Positions 8,497 to 51,446 of a DNA stretch of 64,000 nt are shown in pieces. The DNA lies in assembly GCF_008326305.1 (NCBI RefSeq), contig NZ_BIXY01000026.1, positions 1-64,000 on the forward strand, written 5' to 3'. The first letter of the stretch is position 1; the number at the start of each line of letters is the position of its first letter. Origin of the DNA: Dictyobacter arantiisoli (GTDB taxonomy: Bacteria; Chloroflexota; Ktedonobacteria; Ktedonobacterales; Ktedonobacteraceae). The position numbers and the translations under genes are program-made. Under the pieces are notes generated by a model. That model did no database searches. It saw only the letters and a program-made list of their open reading frames with translations, and was not told the origin of the DNA.

Positions 8497-9483
8497 ATGC
8501 CAATTGCATATACACCAGGGTCACGAATAGATCATTATGAAATAACCCAGATGCTTGGGCATGGGGGGATGAGTCGTGTGTACCTTGCGCGCGATCTGCA
8601 TAATCAACAGACAGTTGTCCTTAAAATTCCCAATGATGACCTGATTGGTAATGTCGGTGTATACGAGCGTTACAAGCGTGAATCTGAGATTGGCAATCGC
8701 GTCAATCATCCCAACGTACAACGTATGCTCAATACTGGTGAGCCACGTAGCGAAGAATATCTTGTGATGGAGTATATTCAGGGTCAGACTTTGCGCACCC
8801 TGTTAGAGGAGCGTGAAGGTAATCCTCTTCCTCCCTCCGAAGCTATCCGCTTGACCTTACAAATTTGTGATGCATTGGCCTATTGTCATGTACATGGGGT
8901 CTTCCATCGGGATATTAAGCCAGAAAATATTATGGTTCAGGATGATGGAACGATCAAGCTGATCGATTTTGGAGTGGCGCTGCTGGCCGGGGCACGCCGC
9001 GTCACCTGGCGCGGACTGACTGGAACGGTGGGTACACCAGATTATATGTCGCCTGAACAGATCCGTGGGGAGCGTGGTACCGCCAGCTCAGATATCTATG
9101 CTGTTGGGGTGATTCTCTATGAGATGCTCTGTGGTCATCCTCCATTTGAAGGCGAAAATGTATTTGCTGTAATGAACCAGCATGCAACGCAAGACCCACC
9201 ATCTATTCTGGATAGCCAACCTGAGCTGTCTCCTGAGTTGGCGACCGTTGTGATGAAGGCGATTCGGCGCGATGCTGATAAGCGTTATAAAACAATGCCC
9301 GATCTCTGTCATGCACTGCAAAATTTGAATGAAGTAATACCGGTACCCTATGAGCCAGAAACACCAGGTCAGAGTACCTGGCGCCATCAGATCCTGCTGG
9401 TCGTATTAATTATCATTGCATTGGCTTTAGTGGTAATTGCGATCGGGGTAGCGGCTCAGATGGTGCATAATACAGCTCACTGA
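8497..9483 (+). CDS. Membrane-anchored Ser/Thr protein kinase (PknB type)
   Basis: The kinase domain covers about residues 12-275 of 328. It has a Gly-rich loop (GHGGMSRVY), Lys43 in VVLKI, HRDIKPEN with catalytic Asp139, DFG at 157-159 and the APE-equivalent SPEQ, so it should be active. One transmembrane helix at about 296-320 anchors it, leaving only some eight residues outside. It therefore has no extracellular sensor domain, unlike PASTA kinases. It phosphorylates proteins on Ser/Thr from ATP at the inner membrane face. It is monocistronic, with no phosphatase beside it. Confidence 0.93.
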   Translation: MPIAYTPGSRIDHYEITQMLGHGGMSRVYLARDLHNQQTVVLKIPNDDLIGNVGVYERYKRESEIGNRVNHPNVQRMLNTGEPRSEEYLVMEYIQGQTLRTLLEEREGNPLPPSEAIRLTLQICDALAYCHVHGVFHRDIKPENIMVQDDGTIKLIDFGVALLAGARRVTWRGLTGTVGTPDYMSPEQIRGERGTASSDIYAVGVILYEMLCGHPPFEGENVFAVMNQHATQDPPSILDSQPELSPELATVVMKAIRRDADKRYKTMPDLCHALQNLNEVIPVPYEPETPGQSTWRHQILLVVLIIIALALVVIAIGVAAQMVHNTAH

Positions 9484-24550: not shown

Positions 24551-25759
24551 ATGAACGGTGACATGATAGGTCGTGTCATCAAAGGTCGCTATAAGCTTAT
24601 TGACGAACGTGGACGTGGCAGCTTTGCCACCGTTTACATTGTGCGCGACCTGGAAGATAACCGTATTTGCGCATTAAAAGTCATGCACCTGGAGCTTTCA
24701 AGCGATGATGAACTGTTAGCTCGTTTTCAGAGAGAGGCACATATTCTTTTAAATCTCAGTGATCCACATATCGTGCGTATCTTTGATTATGGAAATGACA
24801 ACAATATGCACTACATTGTAATGGATTATATCGATGGACAAAACCTGAAATATCATATGATTAATCAAGGGGCCATGGAGCCATTACATGCGATTGACTA
24901 TGCGCGGCAAATTGCTGAAGGGCTGGATACAGCATACAAGCAAGGCGTAGTGCATAGAGACATAAAGCCACAAAATATACTCATTAATAGCCAGAACATA
25001 GTAAAAATTACCGACTTTGGTCTTGCCCGCGGTCGGGACACTGTTACACTGACGCAATCGAATGTATTTATGGGAACTGCCTACTATATTTCGCCCGAAC
25101 AGGCTGAAAGTGGGCGCTCAGCGGATACTCGTTCGGATCTTTATTCGGTGGCTACTGTTTTGTTTGAGATGTTAGCTGGTCGTCCTCCATACGAAGGGGA
25201 TACAGCGGTAGACATCGTTATCAAACAAATCAATGACAAGGTTCCATCTATTTGCCGCTTACGGCCCGATTTGCCGCCAGAAACGGATGCGTTCATGCAA
25301 AAAGCGCTGGCAAAAGCGCCTGCTGATCGTTTCGCTACGCCGCAGGAGTTCATTGCCTCGCTTGAGCTGCTCACGCAGCTCATGCCACGAGATATACGCT
25401 CCGAGGCTGGGAACCGACCTGTCAGCAAGACGCCAGCACCGGCGCCTCAGGTGAAAGAGGCACGTATCATCGTTCTTTCTAGTGGGCTCATCACGCCTCT
25501 CAAAGGGGAGCAAATGGTTGTTGGTCGGCAAGATCCTACCCTGGGCATTTACCCTGAGATCAGCCTGGCGGATAAAACTGTAGGACGAAGGCACGCATAT
25601 TTGCGTAACCAAAAGGGAACGTATACCGTTGAAGATTTGAATGCTCTGAATAAGACGCGTTTAAACGGAGTAATCTTGACACCACACGAGGAACGCACCC
25701 TCAAAGATGGAGACGTTTTACGCTTTGGGAGCGTCGAGGTACGTTTTGAATTGCGATAA
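24551..25759 (+). CDS. Ser/Thr protein kinase with C-terminal FHA domain
   Basis: Of 402 residues, about 13-275 form a kinase with Lys43, HRDIKPQN (catalytic Asp137) and DFG at 155-157, so catalysis is expected. A short linker leads to an FHA fold (about 310-402; VGRQDP, RRHAYL, LNALNKTRLNG), a phosphothreonine-binding module. The usual SxxH serine is replaced (VGRRHA), so binding may be altered. No membrane helix is present, unlike the kinase at 8497. The ATG at 24551 follows GAGGAG; the frame is open upstream without such a site. It heads a kinase/FHA/kinase block, and binding its own or its neighbour's phosphothreonines is a reasonable inference. Confidence 0.93.
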   Translation: MNGDMIGRVIKGRYKLIDERGRGSFATVYIVRDLEDNRICALKVMHLELSSDDELLARFQREAHILLNLSDPHIVRIFDYGNDNNMHYIVMDYIDGQNLKYHMINQGAMEPLHAIDYARQIAEGLDTAYKQGVVHRDIKPQNILINSQNIVKITDFGLARGRDTVTLTQSNVFMGTAYYISPEQAESGRSADTRSDLYSVATVLFEMLAGRPPYEGDTAVDIVIKQINDKVPSICRLRPDLPPETDAFMQKALAKAPADRFATPQEFIASLELLTQLMPRDIRSEAGNRPVSKTPAPAPQVKEARIIVLSSGLITPLKGEQMVVGRQDPTLGIYPEISLADKTVGRRHAYLRNQKGTYTVEDLNALNKTRLNGVILTPHEERTLKDGDVLRFGSVEVRFELR

Positions 25760-27417: not shown

Positions 27418-28578
27418 ATGCAGCAAGACGATCTGATTGGAACAACGCTCGGCAATTATCGCATTCTTGAGACACTTGGGCAGGGGGGAATGGCTCGAGT
27501 GTATAAGGCACATCAGGAAAATCTGGGGCGCGATGTCGCTGTAAAGGTTCTACCACCCTGGTATGCCGCTGACCGTAGTTTCGTAGAGCGCTTCAATCTG
27601 GAGGCCAGATTAGTTGCGTCGCTTACGCACCCCAATATTGTGACTGTTCATGATGCAAGCGAACAGAACGGTCATATTTATATTGTCATGCAGTTTGTAG
27701 ATGGTGGTACCCTGAAGCAACGTCTCGATAACTTACTGCTTGAGAGACGAACCATTGATAATGTTGAGCTCATCTCCATCTTTACGCAGCTTGCAGATGC
27801 GTTAACCTATGCCCATGCGCAGGGAGTCATTCATCGGGATATCAAACCCGTCAATGTCCTGATGGATCGTTCGGGACGTCCGATTTTATCTGACTTTGGG
27901 ATTGCCAAAGTGCTGGCCAGCACACAGGCCAATCTAACGCGTCCTGGGGCGGGTGTTGGCACGCCTGAATACATGTCACCAGAACAATGTCAGGGAGGCC
28001 CTGTGGACGGTCGTGCGGACATCTACGCACTGGGTGTGATGCTCTTTGAAGCTCAAACTGGACGCACTCCCTTTGTTGGCGACAATTATCCCGCCCTGGC
28101 GCATAGTCATATTTACGAGCAGCCACCGCGACCAAGATCCTTGAATCCAGCCATTCATCCAGCGATTGAACAAATTATCCTGACGGCCCTGACAAAGAAT
28201 CCGCAGCAACGTTATCAAACAGCTCGCGATATGGGTGAGGCGCTTAATCAAGCATTAGCAATCATCCACAATTCAGCGCCATCAATCAACAATAGTTACC
28301 TGGGGCAGGCGATAGGAGGGCAATTTTTGCCTGCGCACCTGATGCCGCCACATATCATATCACCGCTATTCCAGCCACCCACGCCGCGCACACCAACTAT
28401 GGTAGATAACCGTCAGAGTATGCTCTACACCTGTTTTAACTGTCAGCATCTCAACAAACCGCAGATGCGCTACTGCACACGTTGTGGCTACTTGCTAAAC
28501 CAATGTACCGTCTGTGGTGAGCGCAATCCTGTTGGCAATCGTTTTTGTACCGCATGTGGTCAACCACTGGCTATTTAA
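27418..28578 (+). CDS. Ser/Thr protein kinase with C-terminal double zinc ribbon
   Basis: Residues about 14-280 of 386 are a complete kinase: GQGGMARVY, Lys43, HRDIKPVN, DFG in LSDFGIAK and SPEQ. After a flexible linker the last 50 residues contain four CxxC knuckles (CFNC, CTRC, CTVC, CTAC) forming two zinc ribbons. There is no membrane helix. Zinc ribbons of this kind usually mediate protein contacts. It follows the FHA protein on the same strand by 156 bases and may phosphorylate it. The start context is poor, and the long-range inverted repeat ahead could limit translation. Confidence 0.92.
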   Translation: MQQDDLIGTTLGNYRILETLGQGGMARVYKAHQENLGRDVAVKVLPPWYAADRSFVERFNLEARLVASLTHPNIVTVHDASEQNGHIYIVMQFVDGGTLKQRLDNLLLERRTIDNVELISIFTQLADALTYAHAQGVIHRDIKPVNVLMDRSGRPILSDFGIAKVLASTQANLTRPGAGVGTPEYMSPEQCQGGPVDGRADIYALGVMLFEAQTGRTPFVGDNYPALAHSHIYEQPPRPRSLNPAIHPAIEQIILTALTKNPQQRYQTARDMGEALNQALAIIHNSAPSINNSYLGQAIGGQFLPAHLMPPHIISPLFQPPTPRTPTMVDNRQSMLYTCFNCQHLNKPQMRYCTRCGYLLNQCTVCGERNPVGNRFCTACGQPLAI

Positions 28579-34029: not shown

Positions 34030-37000
34030 TTAGGAGTATGGGCTATTTGTTGTGTTTTCCTGCTGTTTGAAGAAACGTTCAACATCGCGAATATTCATGG
34101 TACGAGGGGCAGGTGGTAAGGCGTTGAGCACCATTCGTCCATACCCTTTGGTATGCAAACGCGTATCGAGAATCGCCATCACCCCTCTATCTTCACGCGT
34201 CCGTAGCAGACGGCCAATGCCCTGTTTGAGGCGCAGGACCGCCTGGGGCAGGACATAGATGCCAAACCAGTTCTCACCCGCTGCTTTCATATGTGCGACA
34301 CGTGCCTCATGGACTGGATCATCGGGCGGATCAAAGGGGAGTTTGTCAATCACGACCAGGGAGAGCGCATCACCGGCAATATCCACTCCTTCCCAGAAGC
34401 TTTTCAGGCCAAAGAGTACAGCATTCTCCTCTGCGCGGAAACGGCGTGTGAGCTCAAGCCGCGACATATCGCCCTGTTTAAGCAGGGGATAGGGCAGATG
34501 GGGGGCCATCCATGTATAGGCTCCTTCGAGGACACGCTTACTGGAGAAAAGCAGGAAGGCGCGCCCATGTGAGTATTTGACCAGCCGATACATTTCAAGC
34601 GCCAGATCATGGATATATTCCGCCTCGCCCTGACCAAAGGTGGGTGGTGGAAGGTGACGTGGGGTATAGAGCAGGGCGTTGTTTTCATAATCAAAGGTCA
34701 GAGGCAAGATGTTTTCAATGACATCCGTACGCTCAATTGGATCTAAGCCGATGCGGCGACGGAAATAGGAAAAATTCGGCCCCTTCTCTTCTGGCCGAGC
34801 GGGATTGGGTCCAATCGTTGCCAGGGTCGCTGATGTACTGATTACATTGCATTTATTGAAGAGGCGCTCTTTAAGCCACTCGGTCACATCCAGCGGCGCT
34901 GCCGAGGCCTGTAGTACCGGTCCGCGTGCTGATGAGTTCTCGGCGCGTTCTATATAATAGACAAATTTGTCACGCTCTGCGACCGAAAAGACAATGCGAA
35001 TATTTTCAGCCAGATTCTGGACACGCTTGAGCAATTTATCATAAAGCTGTCCCTCTTTCTCTGGCAGCTCTTTGGGACGTTGTTTGCGCATTGAATCGCC
35101 CAGGTCTGAAATGGCTGTAGCCAGATGCAGACCTTCTTCAAGCGGTATTTCGAGATTGGCGCGTCCTTTAAAGCCAAGATTGATTCCCTGTTCGAGACGT
35201 TGCCAGAGTACCTGGGCGGCGCGCATAGCATCATCTTGCAGGGTCAACTGGCTATGCGTTTTAAGCGCACGCTGGGCCAGCAGTGTCTGGATCTGGGCTG
35301 GATTAATCGTGATCGTAAAGGAGCGGGTTGCCTCTTCTTCTAAATGGTGGGCTTCGTCCAGTACGATCAGATCGCGTTCAGGAAGCAAGAAGCCGCCGAT
35401 GGCAGCATCAAGCAGTAAAAGTGTATGATTGACCACAATGATTTGCGCGGCCTCCGCATTTTCACGCATTTGACGCACATAGCAGTCATCGAAGAAGGCG
35501 CATTTTGACCAGGCACACTGATCACTATCTGTAGCAACCCGCCCGCGTATATCAGCGGATAATTTGAAGCCGAGCGTTTCGAAATCTCCATTGAAATCCA
35601 GGCCAGTTTCAGGATCATGGATAAAATCGTAGAGATGCTGAAAATCTGTGTTTTTGGTATACAGCTGCATCCCCATGCGTTCACTTTCAACGCGATCCAG
35701 ACAAATATAGTTGCTGACACCTTTGACCAGGGCCGCCTCAAAGTGCTTGATATGCTTTTGGACAAAAGGGATATCTTTATAAAAGAGCTGTTCCTGCAGG
35801 GCTTTATTGGCAGTACTGATGATCGCAACCTGTCCCGAGCGCACTACCGGTACCAGATACGCCAGGGATTTACCGGTTCCTGTCGCAGCCTCAATAATGG
35901 CCGGTACTTTTTTGCTGATTGCACGTGAGACCAGCGTCGCCATCTCAATCTGAGCGGGACGTTCTTCATAGCCGGGCAGGCGGCGTGACAGCACGCCACC
36001 CTGGCGTAGATCTTCGGCCACCATCGTGACCAGACGCGAATCTTTGACCGGAGCATCATCTAGATTTGCTTCCTCAGCCTGCTCTATTACGCGCGCCGCC
36101 ACATCCAATGGTAGCAGATTGTTTCCAGCCTCTTCATGCTCGATGATTGGCAAGGATTGGGCTGGGCCCTGGTTTTCATCCTCCTTATCCACCGTAACTT
36201 CCACTTCAGCCTCTACCTGTTCGGTCTTTTTTTTGCGTTTTGACGGTTTCTTCGCGGTTGTTTTTTTCTCGGCTGTTTTCTTTGTTACCCGTGTGATTTC
36301 TAGCGGTAATGGCCCTGTATCTGGCAAATCTGCTGCTGCTGCTGGTGCATCTTCGAGTGCTGCTGTTGGTAGTTCATCAAGAATAGTTGGTACTGTTATA
36401 GGCTGTGTCGTGACTGTTTTGTGAAGAACCGGGGCCGTGGGTACTGTCGCATGTCGGACTGGCGGGGTGATCGGCCTGGAAATTCCGAGCAGAGCATTCA
36501 AGTAAGCATCTGCGAACGCCTTGATATGAGGAAAACGCCGGGTAGGATCAAGGGCCAGTGCTTGCAGCAGGACCTCTTCGACCGTGGCGGAGATTGCGGA
36601 ATTCAGGCTGCGCGGTGGTATGATGACTTCGTGCTGTTGTTGCTGAAGGAGCTGCGTACGGTCGGTGGCTGGATAAGGACGGCGTCCACAGAGCCATTCG
36701 TAGGTAATGACAGCCAGGGCATACTGGTCGCTGGCTCCTGTGAACTGGCCCTGGAGCTGTTCTGGAGCCATATAAGGGACAGCCGCAGTTTCATCCTCCA
36801 GGGCAGGTGTAAAGCCCGGTGGGGTTATCGCAAAGCCAGTCAGCAGAATCTCACGTTGCTTGTCGATCAAAATATTGCCAGGATGCAGGTTCCCATGTAT
36901 GACGTGGAGGCTGTGGGCATAGCTCAAGGCATTTGCTAATGGTGATAAGTAGAGTCGGACATCTACCGGGGTGAGCCATGCGTCAGAGGTAAGCTCCAAC

Positions 37001-37290
37001 TGTTCGTTGAGTGGTGTGCCGGTCGTGTGCTCGAAGACGAGATAGCCATAGTCGCCATCAAAATTAGCTTCTATAAGTGGAACAATCGTGCGAGCCTTTA
37101 CCTTTTTGAGCTGCTTTGTGTGAGCCAGAAAGACAATCTTATCCTCTATAGCCGTAAGGGGAGTCGTAAGCCTTTGAATGAGGACATCTTTTTTACGATG
37201 TTTTCCTGAATACAAGGTGCTCGTAGAACTCTCATGCAGCAGTCCGGTGATATCATATAAGCCGAGCTGCTTAAGCTCTACCTCTGCCAT
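34030..37290 (-). CDS. Degenerate-kinase domain fused to DinG/XPD-type helicase
   Basis: Of 1086 residues, about 10-275 have a kinase-like fold without catalytic residues. The Gly-loop is absent, the VAIK Lys is Gln39, HRD is HGN (132-134) and DFG is TGF (151-153), while APEQ (175-178) and SDQYALAVITYEWLCGRRPY remain. A Pro/Ala then Lys-rich linker leads to a superfamily 2 DinG-like helicase from about 390. This has Walker A EAATGTGKS (about 465), four cysteines for an iron-sulfur cluster (about 530 and 590-601, CAWSKCAFFDDC), DEAH (about 645), and C-terminal motifs FWEGVDIAGDALS and QGIGRLLRTREDRG. The helicase should unwind DNA (5'-3' in known DinG/XPD). The kinase-like part may bind or regulate. 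The promoter is at 37339-37367. Confidence 0.92.
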   Translation of the reverse strand: MAEVELKQLGLYDITGLLHESSTSTLYSGKHRKKDVLIQRLTTPLTAIEDKIVFLAHTKQLKKVKARTIVPLIEANFDGDYGYLVFEHTTGTPLNEQLELTSDAWLTPVDVRLYLSPLANALSYAHSLHVIHGNLHPGNILIDKQREILLTGFAITPPGFTPALEDETAAVPYMAPEQLQGQFTGASDQYALAVITYEWLCGRRPYPATDRTQLLQQQQHEVIIPPRSLNSAISATVEEVLLQALALDPTRRFPHIKAFADAYLNALLGISRPITPPVRHATVPTAPVLHKTVTTQPITVPTILDELPTAALEDAPAAAADLPDTGPLPLEITRVTKKTAEKKTTAKKPSKRKKKTEQVEAEVEVTVDKEDENQGPAQSLPIIEHEEAGNNLLPLDVAARVIEQAEEANLDDAPVKDSRLVTMVAEDLRQGGVLSRRLPGYEERPAQIEMATLVSRAISKKVPAIIEAATGTGKSLAYLVPVVRSGQVAIISTANKALQEQLFYKDIPFVQKHIKHFEAALVKGVSNYICLDRVESERMGMQLYTKNTDFQHLYDFIHDPETGLDFNGDFETLGFKLSADIRGRVATDSDQCAWSKCAFFDDCYVRQMRENAEAAQIIVVNHTLLLLDAAIGGFLLPERDLIVLDEAHHLEEEATRSFTITINPAQIQTLLAQRALKTHSQLTLQDDAMRAAQVLWQRLEQGINLGFKGRANLEIPLEEGLHLATAISDLGDSMRKQRPKELPEKEGQLYDKLLKRVQNLAENIRIVFSVAERDKFVYYIERAENSSARGPVLQASAAPLDVTEWLKERLFNKCNVISTSATLATIGPNPARPEEKGPNFSYFRRRIGLDPIERTDVIENILPLTFDYENNALLYTPRHLPPPTFGQGEAEYIHDLALEMYRLVKYSHGRAFLLFSSKRVLEGAYTWMAPHLPYPLLKQGDMSRLELTRRFRAEENAVLFGLKSFWEGVDIAGDALSLVVIDKLPFDPPDDPVHEARVAHMKAAGENWFGIYVLPQAVLRLKQGIGRLLRTREDRGVMAILDTRLHTKGYGRMVLNALPPAPRTMNIRDVERFFKQQENTTNSPYS

Positions 37291-37427: not shown

Positions 37428-37446
37428 TAGTGTATAATATACACTA
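37428..37446. promoter_or_regulatory. Candidate NrtR operator, perfect 19-bp palindrome
   Basis: TAGTGTATA-A-TATACACTA is a perfect 9-bp inverted repeat around one base, lying between the -10 and the expected transcription start of the NrtR-like gene, where a bound repressor would block initiation. NrtR proteins autoregulate from palindromic sites; that this palindrome is the site is inference. A weaker AT-rich copy lies near 37488-37508. Confidence 0.55.
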
Positions 37447-49163: not shown

Positions 49164-51446
49164 ATGGCTGTTGATCCTCTCTTTTGCCCCCGGTGTGGCG
49201 CTGCTTGCGCGAGTGATGCGGCGCTTTGTTCTTTTTGCCAGCATCGCTTGACGGATACTGTTGATGATCGGGATGTTGATGCTGATCAGCCGTTGCTCTT
49301 TGAGCGCTATCAGATTCTGGAGCAGATTGGTTCGGGCGGGTTTGGGGCGGTCTATAAGGCGCGGGATATGCAGGAGCGGCAACGGTTGGTGGCGATCAAG
49401 CAGATCAATCTGCGGGGGTTGACGACACAGGAGATTATCGAGGCGACGGATGGCTTTAATCGTGAGTTGCGTTTTCTCTCTTCGCTCTTTGATCCTCATT
49501 TGCCACAGGTCTATGGGCATCGGACCGATCCGGAACACTGGTACGTGATCATGCAGTATATTGCGGGTGAAACGCTTGAGCAGTATTTACATGATCCAGG
49601 ATCAAAAGATATGCTTCGGGCACTGCCTCTGGATGAGATCGTGGATATTGGTTTGCAGTTGTGCGATGTGCTGCAGTATTTGCATAGCCAGCAGCCTCCG
49701 GTGATCTTTCGGGATCTGAAGCCCGCCAATGTGATGCGTATGCCGTCGGGTGCGCTCTATTTGATTGATTTTGGCATTGCGCGCTATTTCAAGCCAGGGC
49801 AGGTAAAAGATACCATACCCTTTGGTTCACCGGGCTACGCGGCTCCAGAGCAATATGGCAAGGGCCAGACGACGGCGCAGGCGGATATCTATAGCCTGGG
49901 CGCCCTGCTCTACTTCCTGCTCTCACGGCGCGATCCGGCCGAGAATCCCTTCCATTTCACGCCATTGCGCCTCTATGGAGGCGTCGGGTTGCCAGAGATC
50001 GAGGCGTTGATCATGAAGATGGTCGAGTTGGAGACCCATCGGCGTCCCAATCATGTGACACAGGTGGCGTTTGTCTTGCAGCACGTCAAGCATTTGCGCG
50101 AGGAACAGGGATATGCAAACTGGCGGCCATCCTCTCCACCGCCGACCGAGGCGAATCCCGCGCTCTACTGGCAAAGTGCCCCGGTATCGAATGCCAGTCA
50201 GATACCGCAGCAGCAACAACAACAGCAGCAACAAAGGCGGGTGCCACCTGCGCCCCAGACAGCGGGGCAGGCTGGCAAGCAATCTGGCGTTAATCGGCGC
50301 AAATTCGTGCAGGGGGCGCTCCTCGTTGGCACACTGGCGTTCATGGGCCGCTATATCATCCCTGATCTCAACTTCCATTACGGACGGGGCCAGGGTGCCT
50401 ACGAACCTGTAAACAATGAAAAGATGCTGTTCCCGAATATACTGAATAATCGCAGTGCGAAGATGGGGACTGAGGCGGTGACCTGCCTGAGTGCGGCAGC
50501 GCAGGGTCAGGTTTTTGCAACGGCCGATGTCACAGGGAAAATCGTGCTCTGGAGCACGACGACGCTGCAATCCGTCTACACCCTGTCCGTGAAACAGCCT
50601 ATCTCCTCATTGGCCTGGTCAGCGGATAGTACCTATCTGGCAGCGGCTGCGGGGCGGTCGATCTATCTCTGGAAAGTCCCGCCGGTTATTGATTCCGCTG
50701 TCCTTAGTAATATCCCTTATCAGGTGTATGAAAACCTGTTAGCCGGGACTATCCAGACGGTAAGCTGGTTGCCTGAGCCGAATGGGTTAACATTCGCCTT
50801 GAGCGGGAGTGACGGCACCGTGAAGATGGTTACCCTGTCCGAAGATGCGAAGCAGATCAAGTATAGCCAGCAAAAAGTGCATAATGGAGCAGGACCGCTA
50901 AAAACAGGCGCGAATGTTACAGGCGATGGGAGCTTATCCTGGTTTGGTCAACAATATATCGCGCTACAAGACCCGAAGCTCATGGAGATATGGGATACCA
51001 GTAATCTTAACAGTGGGCAGTCAAAAGTGGCTGTTGCTACGATCACGCTCCCGACTGAAGCAAGTCCGGCGCGGGAGATCCATTGGTATCCTGATCCAGA
51101 AAAATTTGGTTCGATGCAGGTGATGATTATACTGAGCATGGACAATGTGATCCATCTGCTGAGTTTACAGCAGAATACCTTGTCCCCTTTGTCCTCTTAT
51201 GATCTGACCGCCAGTGAGATGGTTCAGCACGTTTATGCGGTGACCTGCTCTGACGATGGTCACTATCTGTTTGCTGCCACGGATAAGGGGATTTATGGAT
51301 GGGAAGTGAATGGCGCTAACGCTTTTATCCCTTTTAATGCTTCTCAAGGCAATAGTACCGTGCTCAATTATCTTTCAAATCGAGATGGAATGCTGGTGAT
51401 TGCGGGCAACGATAATGGGGATATCACGATGTGGAAAATAGCTTGA
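49164..51446 (+). CDS. Zinc-ribbon Ser/Thr kinase with WD40-like exported domain
   Basis: The 760-residue product has a zinc ribbon (Cys8, 11, 22, 25), a kinase with Lys79, FRDLKPAN (Asp184; HRD His is Phe) and DFG (202-204), then a Pro/Gln linker with a pure run of glutamines (about 349-357). RRKFVQGALLVG (378 on) at the start of a hydrophobic helix resembles an internal twin-arginine motif. The rest has WD40-type repeats (LAWSADSTYLAAAAG, LWKV, TVKMVTLS) as an extracytoplasmic propeller. The kinase should be active. Ligand sensing by the propeller is inference. Confidence 0.92.
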   Translation: MAVDPLFCPRCGAACASDAALCSFCQHRLTDTVDDRDVDADQPLLFERYQILEQIGSGGFGAVYKARDMQERQRLVAIKQINLRGLTTQEIIEATDGFNRELRFLSSLFDPHLPQVYGHRTDPEHWYVIMQYIAGETLEQYLHDPGSKDMLRALPLDEIVDIGLQLCDVLQYLHSQQPPVIFRDLKPANVMRMPSGALYLIDFGIARYFKPGQVKDTIPFGSPGYAAPEQYGKGQTTAQADIYSLGALLYFLLSRRDPAENPFHFTPLRLYGGVGLPEIEALIMKMVELETHRRPNHVTQVAFVLQHVKHLREEQGYANWRPSSPPPTEANPALYWQSAPVSNASQIPQQQQQQQQQRRVPPAPQTAGQAGKQSGVNRRKFVQGALLVGTLAFMGRYIIPDLNFHYGRGQGAYEPVNNEKMLFPNILNNRSAKMGTEAVTCLSAAAQGQVFATADVTGKIVLWSTTTLQSVYTLSVKQPISSLAWSADSTYLAAAAGRSIYLWKVPPVIDSAVLSNIPYQVYENLLAGTIQTVSWLPEPNGLTFALSGSDGTVKMVTLSEDAKQIKYSQQKVHNGAGPLKTGANVTGDGSLSWFGQQYIALQDPKLMEIWDTSNLNSGQSKVAVATITLPTEASPAREIHWYPDPEKFGSMQVMIILSMDNVIHLLSLQQNTLSPLSSYDLTASEMVQHVYAVTCSDDGHYLFAATDKGIYGWEVNGANAFIPFNASQGNSTVLNYLSNRDGMLVIAGNDNGDITMWKIA

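Follow-up and report, generated by a model that had tools for sequence, protein, structure and literature searches.

A conserved fusion of a predicted pseudokinase with a DinG-type helicase in the Ktedonobacteraceae

The window analyzed here (64,000 nucleotides of Dictyobacter arantiisoli) carries a gene that joins a kinase-like domain to a DinG-like helicase. We find that this is a real, conserved and lineage-specific fusion, and that its kinase domain appears, from sequence alignment and structural modeling, to be a pseudokinase that has lost the residues required for phosphotransfer. The architecture has been mentioned before; the pseudokinase status, the conservation and the history appear to be new; no report of the catalytic loss, conservation or evolutionary history of the fusion was found in the open-access literature.

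The fusion gene and its parts

The components of the 1086-aa protein are listed in Table 1. The sequence-only reading of this DNA had described a single frame with a kinase-like N-terminus followed by a DinG-like helicase, and this is borne out by the uninterrupted open reading frame, by Pfam (Pkinase at residues 32-258, E 9e-25; Helicase_C_2 at residues 902-1060, E 1.5e-40) and by NCBIfam, whose top match is the YoaA helicase model (residues 427-1075) with 543 bits, below the model cut-off of 680. The Walker A, DEAH box and four cysteines that it had listed are all present, and show little or no variation in an alignment of 13 homologues. A frameshift joining two genes, an artifact that by the same reading would have refuted the fusion, and any other mis-joining can be rejected because about 20 further genomes (roughly 50-73% identity; 70-71% for the orthologues of Dictyobacter kobayashii and D. 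aurantiacus) carry the identical architecture in one frame.

Table 1. Components of the fusion gene, with coordinates in the window
Feature	Position	Strand	Evidence and remarks
Whole fusion gene, 1086 aa	34030..37290	-	ATG start; GAGAGG (Shine-Dalgarno-like) just upstream; orthologues also with N-terminus MAEVELQQIG
Putative pseudokinase domain, residues ~10-268, complete bilobal kinase fold	36487..37263	-	Pfam Pkinase, AF2 model, PknA match
Gln39, at beta3 (VAIK) Lys position	37174..37176	-	Lys in 17/22 orthologues
His57, at alphaC Glu position	37120..37122	-	Arg/His/Tyr in 22/22 orthologues (Arg 18); Glu in 30/30 paralogues
HGN (132-134), at HRD position	36889..36897	-	Asp gone in 22/22 orthologues
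GFA (152-154), at DFG position	36829..36837	-	Gly gone in 22/22 orthologues; Asp kept in 13/22
Disordered Pro/Ala/Glu/Thr-rich linker, residues ~273-415	36046..36474	-	pLDDT <50; length variable, evolves fast
DinG/YoaA-type Fe-S superfamily 2 helicase, residues 416-1086	34033..36045	-	Pfam, NCBIfam, Foldseek
Walker A ATGTGKS (469-475)	35866..35886	-	Invariant or nearly so in homologue alignment
Fe-S cysteines C530, C592, C597, C603	35482..35703	-	All four invariant, 13 homologues
DEAH box (645-648)	35347..35358	-	Homologue alignment
Motif VI QGIGRLLR (1023-1030)	34201..34224	-	Homologue alignment

The C-terminal part has the features predicted for a helicase of the DinG/XPD type (Walker A, DEAH, four Fe-S cysteines, motif VI and a modeled DinG fold), its top Foldseek match being E. 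coli DinG (6fwr, E 8.5e-37), and a C-terminal helix is predicted at 1067-1080. In the full-length model the linker of about 140 residues was disordered (273-415, pLDDT <50). Across the fused proteins its length ranges from about 80 to 165 residues and is poorly conserved. This model (pTM 0.55) renders the N-lobe of the kinase domain poorly, and the placement of the domains relative to each other therefore cannot be taken from it. No helicase surface changing in concert with the gain of the kinase was visible either; the 17 positions specific to fused helicases, considered as a possible interface, are scattered and suggest none. Thr-Pro pairs in the linker were also considered as a phosphorylation motif (44 against 27 expected by shuffling), and this excess was judged too weak for a low-complexity Pro/Thr-rich region.

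Two helicases of different families, one fused (L045 in G017, 1438-aa ORF) and one unfused (L056 in G034, 1098-aa ORF), contain an intein-like insertion of about 400 aa in the Walker A, right after TGTGK, with clear similarity between the two inserts. The window genome (G000) also encodes a third DinG-like protein (L128:3500-7501, contig G000:C47), an open frame of 1856 aa that by eye combines a DnaQ-type exonuclease, a DinG helicase and a RecQ-like helicase; it lies downstream of a type I restriction HsdM-like methyltransferase, and a similar long frame is found in G010.

The kinase domain has a predicted kinase fold and has lost its catalytic residues

The sequence-only reading had called for a structure prediction of the N-terminus and a search for kinase folds. 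AlphaFold2, given residues 1-285 and 11 orthologues, produced a complete kinase fold (pLDDT 85, pTM 0.84 for the kinase domain) whose nearest solved structure is Mycobacterium tuberculosis PknA (4x3f_B, Z 29.8, rmsd 2.2 over 267 residues). Next come Staphylococcus aureus Stk1/PknB and mycobacterial PknB.

For the catalytic residues we compared, in one alignment, the kinase domains of 22 orthologues and 30 further kinase domains of the window genome that have an HRD-like motif, a paralogue set drawn from 50 of about 77 kinase matches. The replacements of the beta3 Lys by Gln39 and of HRD by HGN had been read correctly from the sequence. The DFG motif was indeed replaced, as also claimed, but "TGF" was one residue out of register, the true alignment being G152-F153-A154. 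Two further losses escaped the first reading, those of the alphaC Glu and of the catalytic-loop Lys, the latter being His136 here and His, Tyr or Gln across the 22 orthologues. At the HRD Asp position the orthologues have Asn (21) or Lys (1), within the motifs HGN, HNN, HSN or HGK. Both this Asp and the catalytic-loop Lys are present in 30/30 paralogues, counts to be read knowing that an HRD-like motif was partly the criterion by which the paralogues were selected. The DFG Gly is found in 0/22 orthologues against 30/30 paralogues. The catalytic Asn survives in five orthologues and the Gly of the Gly-rich loop in four, and the structural anchors (APE Glu177, Asp188 and Arg252) are retained in all 22.

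Whether the HGN and TGF changes are conserved can thus be answered in two parts. The loss of the HRD Asp is universal among the orthologues, while the losses of the beta3 Lys and of the DFG Asp are lineage-specific. A homologue that keeps Lys, HRD and DFG together, which the sequence-only reading had named as a refutation, does not occur among the 22. The domain thus has the bilobal fold of Hanks-type kinases and lacks their active residue set (beta3 Lys, alphaC Glu, HRD Asp, DFG), and we reject an active kinase on sequence grounds, with no orthologue carrying the catalytic set. Pseudokinases have been defined by the absence of one or more of the beta3 Lys, HRD Asp and DFG Asp (PMC12599244), and the window protein has none of the three. 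The beta3 Lys and the DFG Asp have been lost repeatedly within the clade, which suggests that selection maintains something other than canonical ATP-Mg binding.

Kinase domains are abundant in this genome, with about 74 Pkinase matches above the cut-off, several of them inside the window (near 8536-9297, 24596-25342, 27457-28221 and 49308-49943). Some of the lower-scoring matches have no recognizable HRD (HGN in L108 and L123, HRG in L110), and further pseudokinases are likely among them.

Distribution, origin and selection

A survey of Chloroflexota for the same fusion, another check that had been proposed, found it only in the Ktedonobacteraceae (family f1) among the 400 genomes sampled. Families elsewhere in the order and phylum have a stand-alone helicase, with the match starting near residue 410-430 of the query. 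All the fused proteins form one clade in the helicase tree (support 100) with a single kinase-less member inside, so that the tree requires one gain and one loss of the kinase. The sister of this clade is an unfused helicase of another family (G030, family f3; support 96) that adjoins the same NrtR and isochorismatase-like genes. Given these shared neighbors, the simplest history is a single gain of the kinase at this locus, in the ancestor of the Ktedonobacteraceae. The pseudokinases form a single clade (support 100), apart from the kinases tested from the window's own genome.

Comparisons within one genus gave dN/dS values of about 0.10-0.20 (pseudokinase), 0.22-0.53 (linker) and 0.036-0.064 (helicase). 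The pseudokinase is thus, by this sequence measure, under purifying selection that is weaker than that on the helicase, and it is not simply decaying, since its values are clearly below those of the linker.

Three natural variants, each resting on a single, unverified assembly, depart from the common arrangement. In G018 (L046) kinase and linker have been lost in frame, the leader ...SGKREEKM being joined directly to PEKTDSTALTRIVEADL...; the helicase lies at the same locus beside ligA and shares 94% identity with the one in its genus mate G006 (L035). In G001 and G007 the linker contains a change of frame, so that the kinase, itself intact, and the helicase lie in separate ORFs. Judging from these variants, retention of the helicase does not seem to depend on the kinase.

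Genomic neighborhood

Divergent from the fusion, upstream, lie NrtR and an isochorismatase-like gene, and downstream, at about 220 bp, a conserved gene for a 424-aa zinc-ribbon protein followed by glycosyltransferases. This gene order is common to much of the Ktedonobacteraceae, as a wholly syntenic block, so that adjacency alone is no argument for partnership. The suggestion that the zinc-ribbon/HTH neighbor could be the partner of the fusion found no support, and we have discarded it as an obligate partner: no match to it occurs in the approximately 20 kb examined around the G006 fusion. Membership in a defense system was discarded as well (PADLOC matches only generic kinase and DinG models and the neighbors look like housekeeping genes), as was a type IV CRISPR CasDinG, the NrtR, isochorismatase-like, zinc-ribbon and glycosyltransferase genes being the neighbors and no type IV cas gene being adjacent.

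The divergent promoter region contains a perfect palindrome, TAGTGTATAATATACACTA, at window positions 37428-37446. About ten genomes have it, in the form TAGTGTA-N5-TACACTA, close to their NrtR/Nudix gene, and it is probably the NrtR operator. NrtR control shared with the helicase was rejected; the palindrome probably belongs to the Nudix gene because in G010 it is separated by about 50 bp from that gene and by about 4 kb from the fusion.

Possible roles of the pseudokinase

We see about an even chance that the pseudokinase serves for docking, as a non-catalytic module on a flexible tether to the helicase. A DinG/YoaA-type helicase would have acquired an N-terminal Hanks-type pseudokinase, and the dead kinase would bind a protein partner, which may be an active Hanks kinase, a phosphorylated protein or a replication or repair factor. 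The flexible linker would let the helicase reach nearby DNA, and docking of the partner might also switch the helicase on or off. We infer a binding of protein by the pseudokinase that places or controls the helicase. In favor are the complete fold with its scaffold preserved, the catalytic loss in 22/22 orthologues against near-complete retention in the 30 paralogues, the purifying selection, the long disordered linker, the repeated loss of the beta3 Lys and DFG Asp (by which canonical ATP binding would not be the conserved function), the single pseudokinase clade, the one gain and one loss on the helicase tree and the apparent absence of the YoaA recruitment route (see below). Against it stand the dispensability of the pseudokinase in G018, its separation from the helicase in G001 and G007 and the small number of scattered fused-specific positions.

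A pseudokinase could also act in cis, folding back on the helicase and holding it inactive, or activating it, until a signal arrives. The JH2 pseudokinases of the JAKs, with the same change of HRD to HGN (PMC6287396) and the same N-terminal position, make this attractive. Nevertheless, we consider a switch of this kind rather unlikely here: the linker is disordered and of poorly conserved length, the fused helicases have no concentrated sequence change and the interdomain model is not confident. Two features make us prefer docking to the cis switch, namely the length and variability of the linker and the lack of visible concerted change in the helicase sequence; a long disordered linker also fits a tether better than a rigid interface.

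The domain might instead be a near-neutral passenger, acquired incidentally, that folds and matters little, which is the view of Cheng 2025 (PMC11981726). The deletion in G018, the splits in G001 and G007 and a dN/dS above that of the helicase go in this direction, but the same dN/dS is well under 1 and under that of the linker, the domain is kept at 64% mean column identity across many genera, and only one loss is seen on the helicase tree, all of which makes the passenger quite improbable.

We regard as decidedly improbable that the pseudokinase is a nucleotide sensor, binding ATP or another nucleotide without phosphotransfer and reporting to the helicase. The retention of the beta3 Lys and of the DFG Asp in part of the orthologues (Table 1) and the example of JAK JH2, which binds ATP despite the HGN (PMC6287396), would agree with such a role; however, the window protein and its nearest relatives have no Lys, most of these relatives have no DFG Asp either, the Gly-rich loop and the catalytic Asn are not conserved, and the alphaC Glu is gone in all. 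Some "pseudokinases", such as SelO and SidJ, have residual or alternative transferase activity, and the orthologues largely agree in the replacement motif HGNLHPG (Asn in 21/22, Gly in 19/22), but an atypical active enzyme is hardly credible when the pocket residues (positions 39, 139, 152 and the Gly loop) vary freely among the orthologues.

A wider and for the moment speculative reading, itself unlikely, is a JAK-like regulation in bacteria in which a dead Hanks kinase, controlled by one of the approximately 75 kinase domains of these genomes, gates or places a DNA-repair helicase. In these soil bacteria, Ser/Thr-kinase signaling would then be wired directly into replication-stress repair. 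To our knowledge, bacterial pseudokinases are largely unstudied by experiment. The fused enzyme should be easy to assay (ATPase, unwinding), the fusion is conserved throughout the family, and kinase-bearing and naturally kinase-deleted relatives are at hand, G018 (L046) and G006 (L035) being a ready-made comparison. The fusion thus offers a direct test of whether a dead bacterial kinase regulates or targets its effector and whether Ser/Thr-kinase signaling reaches DNA repair.

Comparison with known systems

With E. coli DinG and YoaA the helicase part shares the architecture and motifs of Fe-S superfamily 2 helicases; it differs by the additional N-terminal pseudokinase and linker and by its sub-threshold YoaA score. 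Recruitment of YoaA through HolC is known from E. coli (PMC11981726, section 3.2), and a HolC homologue in the same genome serves as a criterion for the YoaA subgroup, as does the C-terminal alpha7 helix of MD2, to which HolC binds (Cheng 2025, PMC11981726). No match to HolC/chi (PF04364) was found in the window genome (7.2 Mb, 97% complete), the E. coli control being positive, and the E. coli-type recruitment route therefore appears to be absent.

The sequence-only reading knew of no standard family joining the two domains. This has to be corrected in view of two reviews of 2025, the only relevant ones that literature searches for such a fusion turned up. In a few lines, Cheng 2025 (PMC11981726, section 3.10, Fig. 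11E) reported that a DinG-like protein of the Ktedonobacterales strain SCAWS-G2 carries a "kinase-like domain", with PknA (4X3F) as nearest fold, and suggested an incidental acquisition. SCAWS-G2 is Ktedonosporobacter rubrisoli (L069 in G008), one of our orthologues, and the protein is the same PknA-like domain fused to a non-exonuclease DinG-like protein. That account places the domain at the C-terminus, whereas of the two Helicase_C_2 proteins that we found in this genome one is the fusion, with the kinase N-terminal. The text makes no mention of the loss of catalytic residues, of family-wide conservation or of selection. The present analysis therefore corrects the position of the domain in the sole published remark that we found on this architecture, and adds the catalytic state.

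The second description is that of the DLHK pseudokinases (O'Boyle et al. 2025, PMC12599244), bacterial Ser/Thr pseudokinases primarily from Proteobacteria that have no transmembrane region, frequently occur joined to DEAD-like helicase or DNA2 domains and keep the HRD Asp while their ATP- and metal-binding motifs are degraded. Both are bacterial Ser/Thr pseudokinases joined to a helicase. Here, however, the helicase is of the DinG type, the host belongs to the Chloroflexota and the HRD Asp is kept in 0/22 orthologues.

The JAKs have their pseudokinase N-terminal to the catalytic domain in one chain. The fusion resembles them in the HGN motif and in the position of the pseudokinase ahead of a catalytic domain, and differs in that the catalytic partner of the JAKs is a kinase and here it is a helicase. 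The shared HGN is a convergence, because the domain is closer to bacterial kinases. In animals, dead kinase domains regulate enzymes, and the fusion is a parallel to these in bacteria.
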